From a virus, in the IMG/VR virus record IMGVR_UViG_3300020172_002269, positions 1 through 39,299 of that record: 39,299 bases of DNA, one strand, 5' to 3'. The notes beneath the pieces were generated by a model that had not been told where the DNA came from, made no database searches, and saw only the letters and a program-made list of their open reading frames with translations. Shown here piece by piece: positions 13,727-23,649 of the stretch; positions within the stretch are counted from its first letter, which is position 1; every line of letters begins with the position of its first letter. The position numbers and the translations under genes are program-made.

Positions 13727-13897
13727 ATGCATTACGTTTGGCAGATGAACGATGGCCGCTGGCACATCGACCGCACCACCAGCAGCAAACAACCACGCCT
13801 TGCCTGCGAAAATCACGGCTATAAGACAAAGCGCGAGGCCGTCGATGCATTAGCCCGTGCAGTTATTGAGAGCCGCCCGTCCACGTCGGCTCAATAG
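13727..13897 (+). CDS. Small basic protein, unknown
   Basis: ATG 13727 follows an excellent AGGAGGAAAA ribosome site. The 56-residue product, MHYVWQMNDGRWHIDRTTSS and onward, has a GRWHI beta-hairpin and a C-terminal helix KREAVDALARAVIES. This resembles small phage proteins with a KxEAxxxA helix of unknown role. The stop is immediately followed by the CCACGT array. No membrane or signal segment is seen. Confidence 0.65.
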   Translation: MHYVWQMNDGRWHIDRTTSSKQPRLACENHGYKTKREAVDALARAVIESRPSTSAQ

Positions 13898-13927
13898 CCA
13901 CGTCCACGTCCACGTCCACGTCCACGT
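13898..13927. repeat. Five tandem CCACGT hexamers
   Basis: CCACGT is repeated five times without interruption between two cassette genes, ending 15 bases before the next start codon. A single further copy, CCACGT, lies upstream near 13881. The same hexamer recurs at 14.51-14.84 kb. The array is non-coding here, so it could be a binding site or a length-variable microsatellite. Confidence 0.85.
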
Positions 13928-13942
13928 TTAGGAGGATCAATT

Positions 13943-14296
13943 ATGACGACCTACACAATTCGCGACGGCGAAACAGTCGCACGTAATCTGACAGCGGAGG
14001 AAGCTGCTGCATGGCTGCTGAATGACGACGGTGCCGATTACGAGGTTCGCCCCGGCGAGGAATGCGCCGGCGTCCTGGCGGGGGAACGGTTTTGGGAACT
14101 GTGGACCCGCAAGCAGGTCGCAAACCGGCCCTGGGGCCGCACTGTCATTCACGCGATAGCGCCAGACGAGGAGACCGGCACCACGAAAATTATGGAACAG
14201 GTTATCGGCGCGGGGCATTGGGAAAAGGACGAGCTATCCTGCTTCACAGACCAGCGGTACGATGAAATGATGAAGGAACTGGCAGAGAATGAGTGA
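13943..14296 (+). CDS. Hypothetical cassette protein
   Basis: The start ATG 13943 follows the strong AGGAGGATCAATT ribosome site. The protein is 117 residues and acidic, with MTTYTIRDGETVARNLTAEE at the N-terminus and a central AWLLNDDGADYEVRPG. I recall no function for this kind of protein. Its end overlaps the next gene by eight bases, so both are probably made together. Confidence 0.7.
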   Translation: MTTYTIRDGETVARNLTAEEAAAWLLNDDGADYEVRPGEECAGVLAGERFWELWTRKQVANRPWGRTVIHAIAPDEETGTTKIMEQVIGAGHWEKDELSCFTDQRYDEMMKELAENE

Positions 14297-14528
14297 CCTA
14301 GACCTATTCCGCGCCACAGGGGAAGCGCTACTCGGCCCCCTGTGGCAGTCTGAACTAGCGCGCCAGCTGAACGTGAGCCTGCGCACGATGCAACGATGGG
14401 CGGCGGGTGAGTTCGCCATACCGCCAGGCGTGTGGGTCGATCTACTGAAACTGCTGGCCAATCGGCAGAATGAATTGGCTAAACTGCGTCCGTTGCTGCA
14501 AAAGCAGGTTGCGTCCACGTCAGACTAG
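14289..14528 (+). CDS. Small helix-turn-helix protein
   Basis: The 79-residue protein contains WQSELARQLNVSLRTMQRW (about residues 19-37), a clear helix-turn-helix whose second helix reads SLRTMQRW. A short dimerisation-like helix follows (LLKLLANRQNELAKLRP). It overlaps the upstream gene at its start and ends in VASTSD, the last codons of which include one CCACGT hexamer. It is probably a DNA-binding regulator of the cassette or of the late genes. Confidence 0.7.
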   Translation: MSDLDLFRATGEALLGPLWQSELARQLNVSLRTMQRWAAGEFAIPPGVWVDLLKLLANRQNELAKLRPLLQKQVASTSD

Positions 14529-14831
14529 ACCGCACGTCCACGTCGGCTGATCGTCCACGTCCACGTTGGCCGATCGGCTGCGTCCACGTCTACGTCCGCA
14601 CCAGCGCCCGACGTAGGTTGAGCCTGCACAACTGTCGGCGCATGCCCTTGTTGGCCTCAAGCCCAAGGTCACGTCTACGTCCAAAGACGCTGCTGGTCGG
14701 TCGGCCAATATGCTTGGCGATCTCCGCGTCCGAATACCCCGCCCCTGACATCCGCATGATCGTCGCGTCCACGTCCGCCGTCCAGGTCAGTGGCCGTCCA
14801 CGTCCACGCTTGGCGGGTGCTGCGTCCACGT
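14515..14831. repeat. Dispersed CCACGT hexamer cluster
   Basis: Copies of CCACGT occur at 14515, 14538, 14555, 14561, 14584, 14769, 14798 and 14826, with near-copies (CCACGC, CTACGT) beside several. The cluster covers the 3' end of the HTH gene, the 61-base convergent gap and parts of the AT-hook gene, where the hexamer encodes Val-Asp pairs on the minus strand. Confidence 0.8.
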
Positions 14832-14841
14832 CCACGCTCAT
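14590..14841 (-). CDS. AT-hook plus helix-turn-helix DNA-binding protein
   Basis: ATG 14841 overlaps the RuvC-like stop as ATGA. The 83-residue product starts MSVDVDAAP, has the AT-hook-like KRGRGRP (about 11-17), then WTADVDATIMRMSGAGYSDA and EIAKHIGRPTSSVFGRR, a helix-turn-helix resembling GcrA-like or homeodomain-like folds. The C-terminus is basic. It is the last gene of the leftward replication operon. It may bind the CCACGT repeats within and beside its own gene, which is inference. Confidence 0.7.
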   Translation of the reverse strand: MSVDVDAAPAKRGRGRPLTWTADVDATIMRMSGAGYSDAEIAKHIGRPTSSVFGRRRDLGLEANKGMRRQLCRLNLRRALVRT

Positions 14842-15309: not shown

Positions 15310-15918
15310 TTAGAACGGCACATCATCACCCTTGGCCCAATCGGCCTTGGGCTTGCGCTGCAGGGCCGTCAGGCGGCCCGCTGGGAAGGATTTGAGGACG
15401 GCGGCTAGGGTGGAGTCACCGCACAGCAGATCGCTCAGGATGAGTCCAATTTCGGCCTCTGTGATGGTCACCACGGCGGCACCGTCCTGCCGGTACTGCG
15501 GCACCTCGCCCTCGGGCACGATCGCCACCATCCTGCCGTCCTTCAACCGGACCTCGGTGCCGATGTAAGGCTTCGGCTGGTGCCCTGCCTGCCGTGCCGC
15601 CTGGTCGAGCGCTCGCCAGCCACGGGCCAAGGCGGTGGCGTGGGTCTCGACCGCCTCCGGGTCGTTCTTCTCGATGGCGGCATTGAGCTTCGCCATTTGC
15701 CGGAAGAACTTCGCGCGCATCTCGTCGTTTACCATCGGGATCAGGCGACCCACCCCCCACACCGCCTCCATCTCGGCGGCCACCCCATCGAGCGCATCCA
15801 GATGCCCTTGAATGTCCGACTGCCCAGCAGGGTCTTTCTGCAGGGGTTCGAAGAACCGGGCCAAAGACTCGGTCTCCCGGCGGGAGGGTTTGGGGCGGCC
15901 TCTGGGGTGCTGATTCAT
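15310..15918 (-). CDS. Replication-module protein of unknown function
   Basis: I start at ATG 15918, behind GGAGGA; a GTG nine bases upstream is an alternative. The product is 202 residues, mostly helical in the first half (MEAVWGVGRLIPMVNDEMRA), with a beta-rich segment near 118-150 (GTEVRLKDGRMVAIVPEG). No catalytic motif is seen. It is the first gene after the repeat region that I read as a possible origin, and it is close to the RuvC-like gene, so a replication or recombination role is likely. Confidence 0.7.
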   Translation of the reverse strand: MNQHPRGRPKPSRRETESLARFFEPLQKDPAGQSDIQGHLDALDGVAAEMEAVWGVGRLIPMVNDEMRAKFFRQMAKLNAAIEKNDPEAVETHATALARGWRALDQAARQAGHQPKPYIGTEVRLKDGRMVAIVPEGEVPQYRQDGAAVVTITEAEIGLILSDLLCGDSTLAAVLKSFPAGRLTALQRKPKADWAKGDDVPF

Positions 15919-15953
15919 CCTCTGCACTCCTCCAGTGCCGACCCCTCCAGTTT

Positions 15954-15990
15954 CCGCCAGTCCCTATGTTTAATACATAGGGACTGGCGG
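15954..15990. repeat. Perfect 16-bp-arm palindrome
   Basis: CCGCCAGTCCCTATGT (15954-15969) is followed by a TTAAT loop and an exact inverted copy (15975-15990). The arms contain the ACTGGCGG repeat unit seen in the adjoining array. It lies 36 bases upstream of the 202-residue gene. It could be a dyad binding site, or an extruded or RNA hairpin. Confidence 0.9.
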
Positions 15991-16054
15991 ACTGGCGGAC
16001 TGGCGGACTGCATAGTCCGACAGTTCAACTGGCGGACAACTGGCGGACTGGCGG
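15983..16054. repeat. ACTGGCGG iteron array, candidate replication origin
   Basis: ACTGGCGG occurs six times in direct orientation at 15983, 15991, 15999, 16028, 16039 and 16047, with one inverted copy at 15954 in the palindrome. The first three are perfectly tandem. The array sits in the only sizeable non-coding gap beside the primase-helicase gene, and the same operon encodes a DnaA-like protein. Iterons beside a replication gene are a standard origin layout, so this is my best origin candidate. Confidence 0.75.
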
Positions 16055-16072
16055 AATAATGTTGCTGACCCA

Positions 16073-18241
16073 TCACACCTCCTCCTTCAGACCCGGCTGG
16101 GTCGGTCCCACCCGCACGAAGGTGCGAGGCTTGTGGTGGTCGTCGTACCCGTCAAAGGTCTCCAGAACCCCGTTCTTGACCCAGGTGCGGATCAGGCCCT
16201 TGACCTTCTCCCGCTCGACCGGCGTCTTGCTGTCCAGCCCCAGCACCGTGGCCACCCGGTGTCCCACCCATGCTGCAGCGCGCACGTCCTCACGCCACGG
16301 CCCACCCTGCGACACGGCCTGCTGAACCCGGACGGCGTCGTCGGAGGAAATGCCGGCGAACGGGTCCGGCCACTCCCACGGCTCGACCACGCCGACCGAA
16401 TCGCCCTGCTCAAAGGCATCGCCATTCGGCAATTGTACGGACGCGATGTGGTACCACTCGGCCTTGTCGGCTGGCGGCCCCATCGAAACCTTCCCCTGAT
16501 CGACCCGAAAATAGGCTCGCCTCGTGGTCACCCCAGCCTTGGCGGCCTCGTCCTCATTCATCGAATTGAGCGCCCTCACCGACCGGCTGGCGTCGATCAG
16601 CGCCACCGCGCCACGGGCGTCCTCGATCGTCGTCTGGTTGCCATTGGACTTCCGGCTGTGGTGGGTGAGCGCGATGCTGGCCCCGGTGATGTCGGCAATC
16701 TGCGCCCACTCACGGGCCACTGCCGCGATGGCGTTGTTGTCGTTCTCGGTGACCATGTGGGTCGAAACGAACGGGTCGAACCGTGCCACCAGGATGCCGT
16801 GCTGCCGGATGGTGTCGATGACGGCTTGGACGTTGGGCTTGAGGATCACGGCCCCTTCCCGCTGCTGCTCGGCTATCACCAGGTGGGTGTCGCGGCCTGA
16901 CGACCGGAACAGGCGGGTCTCCAGCACAGCAGGCTCGATCTCGAAATGCAGCGCGGCACCAATGATGCGGCGGTCCACCTCCTCAAGCGGGTCCTCGCCA
17001 TTGTGATACCAGACGCAGCCCGTCTCGGTCGGCGTGATGCCCAAGAGGTCCTTGCCACTGGCAATAGCCAGAAGCTCGACCAGTGCCAGCGAGGACTTGC
17101 CGACACCACCTGGTGCCACGTCAACGCTCAGGAACTTGCGGATGTAGGACGTGCCGTACAAAAACCGCCGCCGTGGGAACTTGGCGGGATCGATCCAGAT
17201 GAACCGCGATGCCAGCCCAGCGTCCACCGACTCGCTATGCACCTCGCCGGTCTCTGGGTCGATGCTCTCGGTCGTCCGCTGCGGGCGATCCAGAATGCGG
17301 TCTGACTCGTATGTCGTCTTCCAACCATTCTCCCGCGCCATCCAGAAGATGGTGCCGACATGCAGGTCGCGCGGCGGCGAGCCGGTGATGGCATCCCACC
17401 GATCCCGCGTCTTGCGAGCGTCATATGAATGGTGCCGCTGGCTCCACTGATCGAACAGCGCGAACCCTTCCCCCGCCCCGTCCGTGGCCGACCACAGCGC
17501 CATGCCGACCCGGTTCCAGGCTTCCCACGAGTCGAAGCGCCCATCGTTCGGCAGGGCGCGCATCGCGTCCTGCAGCGCATCGCGATCGATCTGCCCCTGC
17601 TGGTATCCGATATTGAGTTCGCGCGTTGCGGGTGTAATCGGGCGTAGTTCTGGTTGTGCAGCGGGAGCCTGCGCCTGAACCGGCGCTTGCGCCTCCAGCA
17701 GTTCAGCCACCTCTTTCAAGAACAGGTCTACCTGCGAGACCGCGACCACCTGCAAGTCATCGACCGCAATCTCCCCCGGCGCACCGGGCTGCCAGACAAG
17801 CTCGCCGCCTGACGGGTGCAAACCAAAGGCGTGTAGCTGCTGGCCGCGCCCCAGTATCTCAACCTTCCCATGCTTGCCCGTCACCGACACCTTTGACGGC
17901 GCACCTTCAGCGGCGCGATAGACGAACGCGAGGCGATGCGAGTTCGACCGCCGTCGCATCATGGGCCTTTCGCCCAGCGTGCGCATGGCAATGCGGCCTA
18001 CGTGCAGCACGTACTCGCGGTCATCGATGTCGATGTCTACGACCCGCAGGCCGTCGCACAAGAATCCAGTGTTCAGCATGTCGGCGCGCACCGGCTGCTG
18101 GGCGAAGTGGCTGCGATCTTCACGCGCCAGGTTCGACCAGTTTGAAATCTTTACAGCTTTGTCGTTGGTCAACAGCGGGATCGGTGCCCAGCCGTTTGCC
18201 GCCATTGATTGGCGGAGTTCTTGTATGGCGCTCAATTCCAT
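16073..18241 (-). CDS. Bifunctional primase-polymerase/helicase
   Basis: The 722-residue protein has an N-terminal prim-pol (AEP) domain: VDIDID (68-73) holds the catalytic Asp pair, NSHRLAF (about 100-106) gives the sxH motif, and VEILGRGQQL follows. A PriCT-2-like region ends in RDRWDAITGSPP (about 279-290). The C-terminal RepA/DnaB-like ATPase has Walker A APGGVGKSS (376-384), Walker B-like VARFDPF (485-491) and LTHHSRK. It would make primers and unwind phage DNA. The start ATG 18241 follows GGGGGAG. A strong terminator lies just upstream. Confidence 0.9.
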   Translation of the reverse strand: MELSAIQELRQSMAANGWAPIPLLTNDKAVKISNWSNLAREDRSHFAQQPVRADMLNTGFLCDGLRVVDIDIDDREYVLHVGRIAMRTLGERPMMRRRSNSHRLAFVYRAAEGAPSKVSVTGKHGKVEILGRGQQLHAFGLHPSGGELVWQPGAPGEIAVDDLQVVAVSQVDLFLKEVAELLEAQAPVQAQAPAAQPELRPITPATRELNIGYQQGQIDRDALQDAMRALPNDGRFDSWEAWNRVGMALWSATDGAGEGFALFDQWSQRHHSYDARKTRDRWDAITGSPPRDLHVGTIFWMARENGWKTTYESDRILDRPQRTTESIDPETGEVHSESVDAGLASRFIWIDPAKFPRRRFLYGTSYIRKFLSVDVAPGGVGKSSLALVELLAIASGKDLLGITPTETGCVWYHNGEDPLEEVDRRIIGAALHFEIEPAVLETRLFRSSGRDTHLVIAEQQREGAVILKPNVQAVIDTIRQHGILVARFDPFVSTHMVTENDNNAIAAVAREWAQIADITGASIALTHHSRKSNGNQTTIEDARGAVALIDASRSVRALNSMNEDEAAKAGVTTRRAYFRVDQGKVSMGPPADKAEWYHIASVQLPNGDAFEQGDSVGVVEPWEWPDPFAGISSDDAVRVQQAVSQGGPWREDVRAAAWVGHRVATVLGLDSKTPVEREKVKGLIRTWVKNGVLETFDGYDDHHKPRTFVRVGPTQPGLKEEV

Positions 18242-18971: not shown

Positions 18972-19751
18972 CTAGAACCCGTAAGTTTCCAACCCCTTGG
19001 CGCGCGTTGAGGGGCTGGACCAGTAGAACGACTCGTAGTTCGGGATGACGAGGCCCAGCAGTTCGTGCTTGTCCTTCGACAATCGAAGGAAGCGCTCCAG
19101 GCGCTGGGCGATGTTCGTGAGTGCTGCGATCTCGGCGGCGGCTTGGTCGCGATCCAACTCAAGGACGACACAGGAGCGGCCATCGCCTTTGCCGGCGCGG
19201 GGTTTGGAGTAGCAAAACCGCATGCCGTAGTTGCCAAATGCTTTGGCGTAGATCGCACCCTGGCGGGCGTGCGCGGTAGAAAGCTGCGACGGCAGGCGCT
19301 CGCTTGTCTTGAGGTCGAGTATCAGACCGTGCTGCGCATACTCCCAATCGATGTAACCGATCACCGGGATCGGCACGCCTTCAAGGTTGATGCTGATCTT
19401 CTTTTGATAGTCGCTCGGCACACCGTACTGGCGAAGCTCGGCCAGGCCGTTCTCGACATAGCCGGGGATCGAGTCGCGTTCCTTCTCGCGCTTGTCGTCA
19501 CCAGCAAAGCGCATCTCTGTGTCAAACGCCGACAGCGCCCTGCCAACGCACATTTCGAGCGGCAGCTTGGGGTCCAGAAGACCGAGATGAACCCCCTCCT
19601 CTGCCGCCTTGCCCCGCGCCATTGCGGCGTTAGTTCCAGAGCGGAAACCCAGCAGGCGTTCCATCAGGAAGAGCGGGAGTTCGCTGCTGGCGACGTTGAG
19701 GCTGGATGCAGAGAGATGCCCCAGGCCGTGCATTTCAAAACCGTTGGTCAT
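18972..19751 (-). CDS. PD-(D/E)XK nuclease (Cas4/RecB-like)
   Basis: I start at ATG 19751, which overlaps the methyltransferase stop as ATGA. The 259-residue protein has GKAAEEGVH (47-55), a RecB-family helix with His55, then GYIDWEY with D135 and LILDLKTS with D146 and K148, the D-(D/E)xK active site. A QGAIYAKAF segment downstream matches the conserved Gln-containing helix. The family makes single-strand exonuclease cuts used in recombination. With the SSB-like protein it may form a phage recombination pair. Confidence 0.85.
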   Translation of the reverse strand: MTNGFEMHGLGHLSASSLNVASSELPLFLMERLLGFRSGTNAAMARGKAAEEGVHLGLLDPKLPLEMCVGRALSAFDTEMRFAGDDKREKERDSIPGYVENGLAELRQYGVPSDYQKKISINLEGVPIPVIGYIDWEYAQHGLILDLKTSERLPSQLSTAHARQGAIYAKAFGNYGMRFCYSKPRAGKGDGRSCVVLELDRDQAAAEIAALTNIAQRLERFLRLSKDKHELLGLVIPNYESFYWSSPSTRAKGLETYGF

Positions 19752-21661
19752 GCCGCCTCGCTTTTGACGTTCATCGCGTCCACAATTGCAATTCGCCCAC
19801 CAATCCACGCCATCACAGGCACGGCCATGGAGTTGCCGAGCGCCTTGTAGCGAGGCCCGTCAGCGGCAGGCTTGCCGCGGTATGGGACGAAGGTGTAGCC
19901 CCGCGGAAATCCTTGAAGGGCCTCACACTCTTCGGGCGTCAATCTGCGGACGGCGGTAGATGCAATGATGGCGCCAATTTGATCCGTTTCGGTGCCACGC
20001 TGTAATGTTTGGTTAATGTCGCCAGTGCTTTGGTTGTAGGTATCAAAGCCCACCGCTTGAGCCACATAGGATTGAGACGATCCGCCAGACGCGGCCCTGA
20101 TGTTGGCCGTGTCGTGCGGCCCCTCAAATTGTGCGCCGCCTTCACGGCCGCGAAGATCGAACGCCACATAGGCCTGTTGTTGCGCGCCGGGTTCCGCCGC
20201 CAAGGCGCCGACGATCAACCCATCTCCACCCATGAGACGCACTTCGCTGCGGCAGTTTTGGACGAAGGCGACCGGCTGCGCGATCACATCGCCGCCCTGG
20301 TTCCCGCCGACCGGGCCTCCCGCCATGATGGGCTGGGCAACGTCGGTTTCGCGCGCCTTGTAGTCCTTGCCGGAATTCATCGGCATGATCGAGTACGCCA
20401 CCGCAGGCATCACCCCGCCGTTGGCATGGCTCTTGTCGTGGCCGCCGCTGCGGAGTGTGGGGGAGATTGGACCAGCGTCTGCGCCGTGGTCCTTCGCAGA
20501 GAAGGCGATGGCCGGCGTCTGGCTCTTGATAAGCGCGGGCGACAGGTTCTCGAGCATCTCAAGGTTCTGCGTTGCGCCGCGCTGCCACTCAAAACTTACA
20601 GGCACCAGCGGCGTCCCCCTGCCCGTCCCGTCCTCGCTGGCGTCGAAGCCTTCAGCGCGGAGAGAATGGGTGACGATCGGGGCCTCGTGCAGGCAGGTGA
20701 GCGCGGGACACAGATCGTTGTCGAAGATGGGAGCGTTCGCCTGACCGCTCGTCATGGCGAGCGGGATCAGTCGCCCAGTCGCCGCCTGTTGACCCAATGC
20801 CCGATAGCCTTCCGAGTCGAGCGTTCCAGCAACGACCGGGATCAGCGCCGTCACCGTGTCGCCGTCGGTGCCTGGCGGACGATTGCCGCCGGTGCGGTTA
20901 CCGTTGGCGACCAGCGTCGGCGCGACTTGCCCATCCTCAAGCACCGGGATGTAGGTCTCCAAGTCTGCCGCATTGGCACAGGCAGCGCCGCGCGCAGCCG
21001 ACAGCGTGTTGGCGATCAATCCTCCGTCGCAGTCGAAGTCGGTGCCGAGGCCACCGCCTGCAGTGCCGCGGCTAGGGATGGTGGGAGCAACTTTCCCCGC
21101 TTCCCGGCGCGGCGGAGGATTCCCGAGCAGGCTTTCGCGCTCAAAAAGAACCGCTGCGGCACGACGCCAGTCTCCAAGATGCGCGACAACGAACACGCGC
21201 GCCCGTCGCTGGGCCAGGTTGAAGTATTGAGCGTCAAGAACCCGGTAGGCGAACCCATACCCGAGCTCTGCCAGCCCTCCGAGGAAGGCTCCAAGCGCCC
21301 GTCCATCATCAGACGACAAGACACCGGGGACATTCTCCCAAACGATCCAGCGTGGCTTCGTTCGCGCAGCCAGGCGAAGGAACTCAAGTGTGAGGTTCCC
21401 TCGATCGCCAGCAATTCCCGCGCGAAGTCCGGCGACGGAGAAGTCTTGGCAGGGGGTGCCTCCGACAAGAACGTCAATTGCTCCATACTCATGGCCCTCG
21501 ATCGTGGTGAAGTCGCCATGCAGGGGCACGGTCGGATAGTGGTGGGTCAGCACGGCGCGCGGAAACGCCTCGATTTCGGAGAACGCCGCAGGCTCCCAGC
21601 CGAGCGGGTGCCACGCCACGGTGGCGGCCTCGATGCCAGAGCAGACGCTCAGGTATCTCAC
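19748..21661 (-). CDS. DNA (cytosine-5) methyltransferase with very large variable region
   Basis: The 637-residue protein starts at GTG 21661, overlapping the upstream stop as GTGA. The C5-methyltransferase motifs are in order: LSVCSGIEAA (motif I), GGTPCQDFS with catalytic C71 (IV), ENVPG at 109-113 (VI), QRRARVF at about 151-157 (VIII), RRLTPEECEALQGFP at about 572-586 (IX) and ALGNSMAVPV (X). Motifs VIII and IX are separated by about 400 residues, far more than usual, with repeated PT-containing segments. It methylates phage DNA, probably to resist host restriction. No partner endonuclease is present. Confidence 0.9.
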   Translation of the reverse strand: MRYLSVCSGIEAATVAWHPLGWEPAAFSEIEAFPRAVLTHHYPTVPLHGDFTTIEGHEYGAIDVLVGGTPCQDFSVAGLRAGIAGDRGNLTLEFLRLAARTKPRWIVWENVPGVLSSDDGRALGAFLGGLAELGYGFAYRVLDAQYFNLAQRRARVFVVAHLGDWRRAAAVLFERESLLGNPPPRREAGKVAPTIPSRGTAGGGLGTDFDCDGGLIANTLSAARGAACANAADLETYIPVLEDGQVAPTLVANGNRTGGNRPPGTDGDTVTALIPVVAGTLDSEGYRALGQQAATGRLIPLAMTSGQANAPIFDNDLCPALTCLHEAPIVTHSLRAEGFDASEDGTGRGTPLVPVSFEWQRGATQNLEMLENLSPALIKSQTPAIAFSAKDHGADAGPISPTLRSGGHDKSHANGGVMPAVAYSIMPMNSGKDYKARETDVAQPIMAGGPVGGNQGGDVIAQPVAFVQNCRSEVRLMGGDGLIVGALAAEPGAQQQAYVAFDLRGREGGAQFEGPHDTANIRAASGGSSQSYVAQAVGFDTYNQSTGDINQTLQRGTETDQIGAIIASTAVRRLTPEECEALQGFPRGYTFVPYRGKPAADGPRYKALGNSMAVPVMAWIGGRIAIVDAMNVKSEAA

Positions 21662-22663: not shown

Positions 22664-22888
22664 TCACCACGCCACCGTAGGATTGAGGTGCTGGCGCTTG
22701 ACCGCGCCCTTGGTGAGCCGCTCAATGGCGGGGCAAATTCCCGCAGGAACTACAGCCCCGCGTGCAACGCGGCGGCGCATCTCGCTGATATAGCTTTGGT
22801 TTTTGCGGCCCAGCGCCCGCGCCAGTGCGGCTTGGCTACCTGCGATGGCGATGGCTCGATCAAGAGATTTCAGTGAACGCGTTGACAT
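22664..22888 (-). CDS. Cro/YdaS-like repressor
   Basis: The protein is 74 residues from ATG 22888. SLDRAIAIAGSQAALARALG (5-24) and then QSYISEMRRR form a helix-turn-helix, and the C-terminus ICPAIERLTKGAVKRQHLNP is the usual ending of YdaS-type Cro proteins. It faces the CI-like gene across a 90-base gap, the classic immunity layout. No ribosome site precedes it, and the predicted transcript start is within a few bases of the ATG, so the mRNA may be leaderless. Confidence 0.8.
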   Translation of the reverse strand: MSTRSLKSLDRAIAIAGSQAALARALGRKNQSYISEMRRRVARGAVVPAGICPAIERLTKGAVKRQHLNPTVAW

Positions 22889-22896
22889 TGTCGCAA

Positions 22897-22924
22897 GATA
22901 AACACATCTGTGTGTATCGTTCAA
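22897..22924 (-). promoter_or_regulatory. Leftward early promoter with operator
   Basis: On the minus strand TTGAAC (22924-22919) and TTTATC (22902-22897) are separated by 16 bases. The palindrome ACACA-TC-TGTGT at 22902-22913 lies in the spacer and touches the -10. The same arrangement and the flanking ATTGTGTTGA are found again at the rightward promoter at 23688, so both are probably controlled by the same repressor. Confidence 0.7.
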
Positions 22925-22977
22925 CACAATTCTAATTGGATATGTCTATAAGATGTTCTCCGCACAGGAGTACGGCT

Positions 22978-23649
22978 ATGTCGTCCGTTGGGGACCGTTG
23001 CAAACAGGCGCGAGAGAAACTGAAGAAAAGCCAGCAAACGCTGGCTAACGATGTTACGCGCTTGGGTTACTTAATTGGACAGAGCGCAATTGGGAATTTG
23101 GAATCGGGCCACACGCAGAATCCGAAATTTATTGTGGAGCTTGCTTCGGCGCTTGGCGTCAGCGCCGATTGGTTGCGCACCGGCAAAGGGCAAAGCGAGC
23201 AATCTGCGGCAGCCGTTGCCCCGGTTATGTTACCTGATGTAGTCTCAATGGCCCGCGACATCCCAGTGCTGGGCACGGCGTCCGGTGGGAACGGGCAGAT
23301 AATGATGCAAGGGGGAGCTATCGACTACGTTCGCAGGCCGCCGCCGTTGGCGGGTCGGGCAGATGTGTTCGCGTTGTATATTGAAGAGGTATCAATGGTC
23401 CCGGCATTTTCTCCGGGAGATTTGGTATTTGTCGAAAAGCGTAAGCCTCGCGTGGGCGATCACGCGATCATCGAGTACCAGGACAACGCGCATGACGATC
23501 CGCGCGTTATTATCAAGAAGCTGGCCGCCGTGACTGCGACCACCGTCCGACTTGAGCAATACAATCCTGCTAAGATACTGGAGCTAAAGGCGGCCTCGAT
23601 CATCCGCATGCAGCGCGTGATGACCATGGCCGATCTGTTTGGGGTATAG
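22978..23649 (+). CDS. cI: CI-like repressor with S24 peptidase domain
   Basis: I start at ATG 22978 behind AGGAG. The 223-residue protein has an XRE-type helix-turn-helix (about 6-64; TLANDVTRLG and IGQSAIGNLESG) and a C-terminal LexA/CI peptidase domain. Ser139 lies in EEVSMVPAFSPGD and a Lys pair (180-181) lies in VIIKKL. The presumed cleavage hinge reads LGTASGG. It would hold the prophage state and be inactivated by RecA-stimulated self-cleavage. The SM-P-FSPGD motif is intact, although the usual Gly-Asp before Ser is Glu-Val. Confidence 0.9.
   Translation: MSSVGDRCKQAREKLKKSQQTLANDVTRLGYLIGQSAIGNLESGHTQNPKFIVELASALGVSADWLRTGKGQSEQSAAAVAPVMLPDVVSMARDIPVLGTASGGNGQIMMQGGAIDYVRRPPPLAGRADVFALYIEEVSMVPAFSPGDLVFVEKRKPRVGDHAIIEYQDNAHDDPRVIIKKLAAVTATTVRLEQYNPAKILELKAASIIRMQRVMTMADLFGV

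Follow-up and report, generated by a model that had tools for sequence, protein, structure and literature searches.

The DNA analysed here is a 39,299-bp IMG/VR virus record, referred to throughout as the window, which encodes terminase, portal, capsid and tail proteins homologous to those of podovirus-like phages. Its portal protein is about 70% identical to those of two circular 39-kb Manatee Spring genomes and 52% identical to that of Sinorhizobium phage phiM5, and the ends of the window show no overlap that would indicate circularity. The replication module contains a non-coding gap of 154 bp (15919-16072), the next largest gap there being about 65 bp, which is bounded by the stop codon of a prim-pol/helicase gene (16073) and the ATG of a 202-aa ORFan (15918). 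An earlier reading of the letters alone (the sequence-only reading) had singled out this gap as the only sizeable one of the module and had described in it six direct copies of ACTGGCGG with spacings of 8, 8, 29, 11 and 8, one inverted copy, and related ACTGGAGG sequences on the minus strand toward the next start codon. All of these were confirmed: the six copies lie on the plus strand and start where the exact direct iterons of Table 1 start, the inverted copy lies at 15954-15961 and the related sequences at 15928-15936 and 15943-15951. ACTGGCGG occurs 11 times in the whole window where 2.4 copies are expected, a number reached in none of 100 shuffles, and seven of the 11 fall in the array. 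The repeat unit is better written as the 9-mer ACTGGCGGA, which has eight exact copies in 39.3 kb, seven of them inside 103 bp (15953-16055). Within 128 bp the array holds ACTGGCGGA seven times exactly, six of these copies being direct and one inverted, and twice with one mismatch; one of the latter, the inverted near-copy ACTGTCGGA at 16016-16024, had been overlooked. One 8-mer is present seven times in a 110-bp stretch of the array, and elsewhere in the window no stretch of that length has an 8-mer more than four times.

Table 1. Features of the iteron array and of the genes discussed in the text (positions in the window)
Feature	Position	Strand	Remark
202-aa ORFan adjoining the array	15310..15918	-	without family match or viral relative found
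Iteron array, candidate origin	15928..16055	.	between helicase stop codon and next gene
Near-iteron ACTGGAGGA, 1 mismatch	15928..15936	-	overlaps likely ribosome-binding region of next gene
Weak iteron-like ACTGGAGGG, 2 mismatches	15943..15951	-	
Palindrome, 17-bp perfect arms	15953..15991	.	AT-rich centre CCC-TATGTATTAAACATA-GGG in gene sense
Exact iteron ACTGGCGGA, inverted	15953..15961	-	
Exact iteron	15983..15991	+	
Exact iteron	15991..15999	+	
Exact iteron	15999..16007	+	
Near-iteron ACTGTCGGA, 1 mismatch, inverted	16016..16024	-	
Exact iteron	16028..16036	+	
Exact iteron	16039..16047	+	
Exact iteron	16047..16055	+	
722-aa replication protein	16073..18241	-	Prim-Pol (residues 12-153), PriCT_2 (224-302), AAA_25/RepA-type helicase (347-533), C-terminal winged helix
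C-terminal winged-helix domain, proposed iteron binder	16106..16345	-	about residues 633-712
K704 and H703 codons	16130..16135	-	wing-tip residues; track iteron bases 6 and 8
R654 codon	16280..16282	-	residue tracks iteron bases 1-2
DnaA domain IV-like protein, 241 aa	21658..22383	-	Bac_DnaA_C, E 3e-10

The palindrome at the array is perfect, as the sequence-only reading had it, with arms that are 17 bp long rather than the 16 bp claimed (15953-15969 and 15975-15991) around a 5-nt centre. The arms hold one inverted and one direct iteron, and the iterons of the window are inverted across this AT-centred palindrome. Among the relatives described below, iterons on the 5' side are mostly on the minus strand (148 minus versus 81 plus) and those on the 3' side mostly on the plus strand (109 plus versus 41 minus). 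A core of the form CCC-(A/T)3+-GGG is found in 25 of 54 arrays as compared with 2.2 in shuffles, and the palindromes of relatives often have a CCCC-TATA-GGGG core.

Pfam assigns AAA_25, PriCT_2 and Prim-Pol domains to the 722-aa protein, the helicase part of which is homologous to RSF1010 RepA (E 9e-22). The C-terminal region is predicted by AlphaFold to form a winged helix (mean pLDDT 82.6) in which, as assigned by residue number, residues 702-704 make up the tip of the wing hairpin and residue 654 is part of the loop that precedes the second helix. By sequence, no solved relative and no credible Pfam family was found for this domain, and a fold search of the PDB returned generic winged helices (PadR, RecQ and O-methyltransferase dimerisation domains), none of which was significant at E 0.001. 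Other genes of the window include a cytosine-C5 methyltransferase whose conserved parts are separated by a long, variable insert (19748-21661), and a CI-like S24 repressor together with a YdaS/Cro-like gene (22664-23649); no integrase was recognised among the window ORFs. Together with a plasmid-like replicon, this would be compatible with a phage-plasmid lifestyle. Imperfect TCCACGTCCACG repeats are scattered over about 1 kb at 13873-14836, partly in coding frames (VDVDVD, minus strand), and parts of them are also multi-copy in the relative L009.

L009 is the sole close relative of the window, with structural genes that are 96-99% identical, and it ends about 700 bp before the array; the phage collection contains no close DNA relative. 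In MW202711, MW202496 and phiM5 the replication module has a different primase, so that conservation of the array could not be tested there. Single-protein scans of viral contigs found no relatives for the 202-aa ORFan, the primpol or the DnaA-like protein, and the exact repeat pattern of the window was not found in these contigs. Conservation was tested on distant homologues of the helicase, for which a search matched prophages in Methylobacterium and Amaricoccus, four plasmids and 80 viral contigs, the related loci representing phages, prophages, plasmids and one phage-plasmid. An automatic filter called an array where a word of the form NNTGNNGNN had at least two exact and at least four total copies in 260 bp. 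By this filter an array directly follows the helicase stop codon in 49 of 91 loci and is present at +300 bp in 10 of 90, as opposed to none of about 450 windows upstream (-300 to -1500 bp) and one of 237 random windows of terminase loci. A 7-mer statistic that is independent of any word restriction gives the same picture: at offset 0, 42% of loci contain some 7-mer five times or more, and at almost every other offset within 3 kb this holds for 0-1%. There is a smaller second peak (9-12%) at +375 to +500 bp, where the array of several loci is located. A small gene lies between helicase and array in L156, L159-L165, L187, L191, L203 and L204, where the array is kept about 460 bp downstream. The position of the repeats is conserved in dozens of relatives, and what they have in common after the helicase stop codon is a design of short repeats, a palindrome and inverted repeats in which the words themselves differ. 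About 40% of the loci of the first set have no array near the helicase gene, and none follows the gene of RHph_X2_26, the closest annotated phage protein. Among more divergent phage helicases (L097, L099, L100, L102-L104, L109, L118 and L120), arrays recognised by eye lie directly 3' of the gene and consist of unrelated words, for example TTCGGCG, GTGTGCG, GCACGTCCG and GTGGGACA. The same module is found in a Rhodoplanes phage-plasmid which has no other annotated initiator in a plasmid gene table that is incomplete, and in some homologous plasmids (L124) repBC is present as well.

This conserved position supports the proposal of the sequence-only reading that the iterons form an origin linked to the prim-pol/helicase gene, and it bears on the possibility that the helicase C-terminal domain binds the array as an operator, or as a copy-number or incompatibility site for the operon or the next genes, instead of marking a start of replication. 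The array is indeed located upstream of the 202-aa ORF and of RuvC-like genes, and it extends into the ribosome-binding region of these. However, in relatives it stays 3' of the helicase whichever gene comes next, the AT centre of the palindrome resembles a melting site, the one promoter-like match is weak and lies on the opposite strand, and the homologous layouts of PICIs and pRN1 are proven origins (PMC6092414, PMC4234260). A regulatory site of this kind is therefore considered improbable. The switch in GC skew that had been suggested as a sign of an origin is absent from the array, the extremes being located near 6.1 and 35.7 kb, which is a weak test for a 39-kb phage; three plasmids that were examined show no switch at the array either.

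The iteron word varies among relatives, mostly within the form RSTGNNGNA, and it changes as a block, with all copies of an array differing together between phages that share 94-100% identity in the helicase core. Within such close groups the differences between the helicases are concentrated in the last 85 or so residues. L182 and L193 have cores that are 100% identical over the aligned region and C-terminal domains that are 63.5% identical, and their words are ACTGGCGCA and ACTGATGCA (GCGC versus ATGC), while in L156 and L163, with 98.9% identical cores, the word differs at base 8 only (C to A) along with a change of R703 to S. Mutual information was calculated between 369 alignment columns and the bases of the word in 54 dereplicated loci. 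Residue 654 heads the ranking for base 1 (z 33.6), and for base 2 it comes second (z 24.1) after column 559; R at residue 654 corresponds to AC and Q to GG. Residue 704 is the top column for bases 5 and 6 (z 8.7 and 8.5) and residue 703 for base 8 (z 14.0), and in a test on distant pairs 704 is not the top column for base 6. The word switches between close pairs matter because permutation does not remove shared ancestry.

The covariation points to the C-terminal domain of the helicase as the likely binder of the iterons and away from the DnaA domain IV-like protein, which the sequence-only reading had put forward for this role. An oriC-like origin bound by the latter is suggested by the match of the 241-aa protein to Bac_DnaA_C, but the iteron is unlike a DnaA box, neither TTATNCACA nor a one-mismatch version of it is found near 16 kb, the nearest one-mismatch boxes being at 8.1, 25.9 and 26.0 kb, and proteins with a DnaA HTH are annotated in structural relatives that do not have this helicase. 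Because no DnaA box lies near the array, and with the covarying residues sitting in the helicase, a DnaA-type mechanism is very unlikely and the candidacy of the 241-residue protein is not supported. A role of the array at the level of RNA, as a terminator or as a large hairpin of the mRNA, in either case between two genes that are transcribed together, is given similarly little credence: the transcript fold is very stable (-81 kcal/mol, z -7.8), but there is no T-run terminator at the array and no Rfam match, the repeats outside the hairpin have the same word, and the covariation of the word with residues of a DNA-binding domain largely refutes it. Least credible of all is the idea that the prim-pol domain recognises the repeats or starts at them, in place of a helicase-bound origin. 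The primase of pRN1 starts at GTG motifs (PMC4234260) and the 722-aa protein does have a Prim-Pol domain, but the covarying residues are located in the winged helix, and in Methylobacteriaceae the array is kept with homologues of 439-466 aa that have no prim-pol domain, some of them beside a separate toprim gene; this makes such a mechanism unlikely.

The correspondence between residues and bases also has predictive value. Rules in lookup form, derived from the 54 loci, were tried first on loci of bacterial genomes and afterwards on those of two further viral scans, with permutation tests that do not fully remove relatedness between loci. In the first validation set base 6 is predicted from residue 704 in 17 of 21 cases (permuted mean 7.0, p 5e-5), base 8 from residue 703 in 19 of 21 (permuted mean 14.9, p 0.001) and bases 1-2 from residue 654 in 17 of 19 (permuted mean 11.3, p 0.002), each of these three predictors being the best or equal best among all columns. 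The word filter and the base 6 rule for this set were defined before the validation loci were read; scoring base 6 apart from the dinucleotide was chosen after the first validation list, which makes the second set the cleaner test. This second set consists of 35 loci with a C-terminal domain less than 90% identical to all used before. Here residue 654 predicts base 1 in 30 and base 2 in 31 of 33 cases (p 5e-5) and residue 704 predicts base 6 in 21 of 27 (p 5e-5), and the prediction of base 8 from residue 703 is weaker (13 of 17, p 0.012), 703 not being the top column in this set, in which the wing of one large clade (RQGR, RQAR, RTGR) seems displaced by one residue. For base 5, residues 702, 704 and 705 are all non-significant as predictors out of sample. 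A second helicase clade (L340-L405) has wings of the type RQGR, RQAR, KKGR, RHGR and RTGR and seems to use a code that is shifted by one residue, the pairings being Q with AG, H with TG, K with GG, T with GT, and D or N with CG.

The C-terminal domain encoded by the window is at most 46% identical to any other. With the window left out of the rules, R654 predicts A at base 1 (16 of 16 other loci) and C at base 2 (15 of 16), and H703 predicts G at base 8 (2 of 2 other loci). K704 is ambiguous, C being the commonest base 6 among 16 loci (6 C, 5 A, 4 G and 1 T). The word of the window thus agrees with the code, strongly for bases 1-2 and only weakly for base 6.

Among other replicons, P4 alpha has octameric iterons and a C-terminal winged helix, and in RSF1010 the iterons that are bound by RepC are 20 bp long. 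The RepA protein of RSF1010/IncQ has a homologous helicase domain, but RSF1010 uses separate RepA, RepB and RepC proteins whereas the protein of the window fuses helicase, prim-pol and DNA-binding domain; with this fusion and its 9-bp iterons the window departs from the IncQ pattern of a separate RepC and 20-bp iterons. RepC of RSF1010 melts oriV and loads RepA (PMC8965321). There is experimental support for an origin that closely follows the initiator gene on its 3' side in SaPI, PICI, Cch2 and pRN1 (PMC6092414, PMC7581432, PMC4234260). Like the window, the pri-rep-ori modules of SaPIs and PICIs (PMC6092414; SaPI Rep, PMC7581432) have the origin immediately 3' of the rep/initiator gene, and both have short iterons in two sets that flank an AT-rich region and a linked primase and helicase. 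The C-terminal domain of SaPI/PICI Rep recognises the iterons; for the window, the corresponding contact is suggested by residue-base covariation. PICIs are small satellites without phage structural genes and have helicases of the DUF927 or D5/Primase_Cterm type, in contrast to the AAA_25/RSF1010-RepA type of the window, a phage of full size that encodes terminase, portal and capsid. These structural genes and the different helicase family rule out that the window is itself a PICI. The isolated C-terminal domain of the SCCmec Cch2 helicase (PMC7581432) binds short direct repeats that closely follow the helicase gene, but Cch2 is a D5-type helicase with three 5-nt iterons in a staphylococcal cassette. 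ORF904 of pRN1 (PMC4234260) likewise combines prim-pol, helicase and winged helix, and the pRN1 origin lies within 166 bp 3' of the gene; unlike in the window, the helicase belongs to SF3 and the origin is a stem-loop of 100 nt with a non-conserved sequence and without an iteron code. In the RepA_N replicon of PLEs, which are Vibrio cholerae satellites (PMC8263062), the initiator exchanges its DNA-binding domain jointly with the origin, as one module, which seems to be the case here too, but the RepA_N initiator has no helicase and the covariation is at the level of the module and not residue by base (PMC8263062).

Taken together, the array is very probably the replication origin of the phage, with iterons that would be bound by the upstream prim-pol/RepA-type helicase via its C-terminal winged helix. 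The covariation suggests that the winged helix of the 722-aa protein binds the iterons; from the domain content and the SaPI, PICI, Cch2 and pRN1 replicons it can further be proposed that the inverted iteron sets that flank the AT-centred palindrome position helicase subunits or rings, that the AT-rich centre then melts and the helicase loads itself, and that the prim-pol domain would prime synthesis. It is also reasonably likely, if less certain, that the window belongs to a replicon family that is widespread in phages and plasmids and in which a helicase of the RecA fold (RepA/AAA_25) reads its own origin via a C-terminal winged helix, following a simple residue-base code (654 for bases 1-2, 704 for base 6 and 703 for base 8), and in which domain and array are exchanged or co-evolve as one cassette. 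The open-access literature, to which the search was confined, yielded no earlier description of this origin family, nor of the residue-by-base code, the use of a RepA-type helicase or the occurrence in full-size phages.

The origins of most uncultured phages are unknown, and the rule that emerges here for a large family is to look 3' of an AAA_25/RepA-type helicase, a few residues of which predict the word that the origin uses. The origin layout of PICIs and SaPIs, which has been described as unique to those satellites, would thereby extend to phages of full size and to phage-plasmids whose helicase has a different fold. Nearly identical helicases whose words have switched represent natural experiments on the joint change of initiator and origin, and they make both base readout by the winged helix and self-loading of the helicase directly testable. 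If domain and array do change as one cassette, origin specificity in these replicons would switch rapidly, possibly under incompatibility or parasite pressure.
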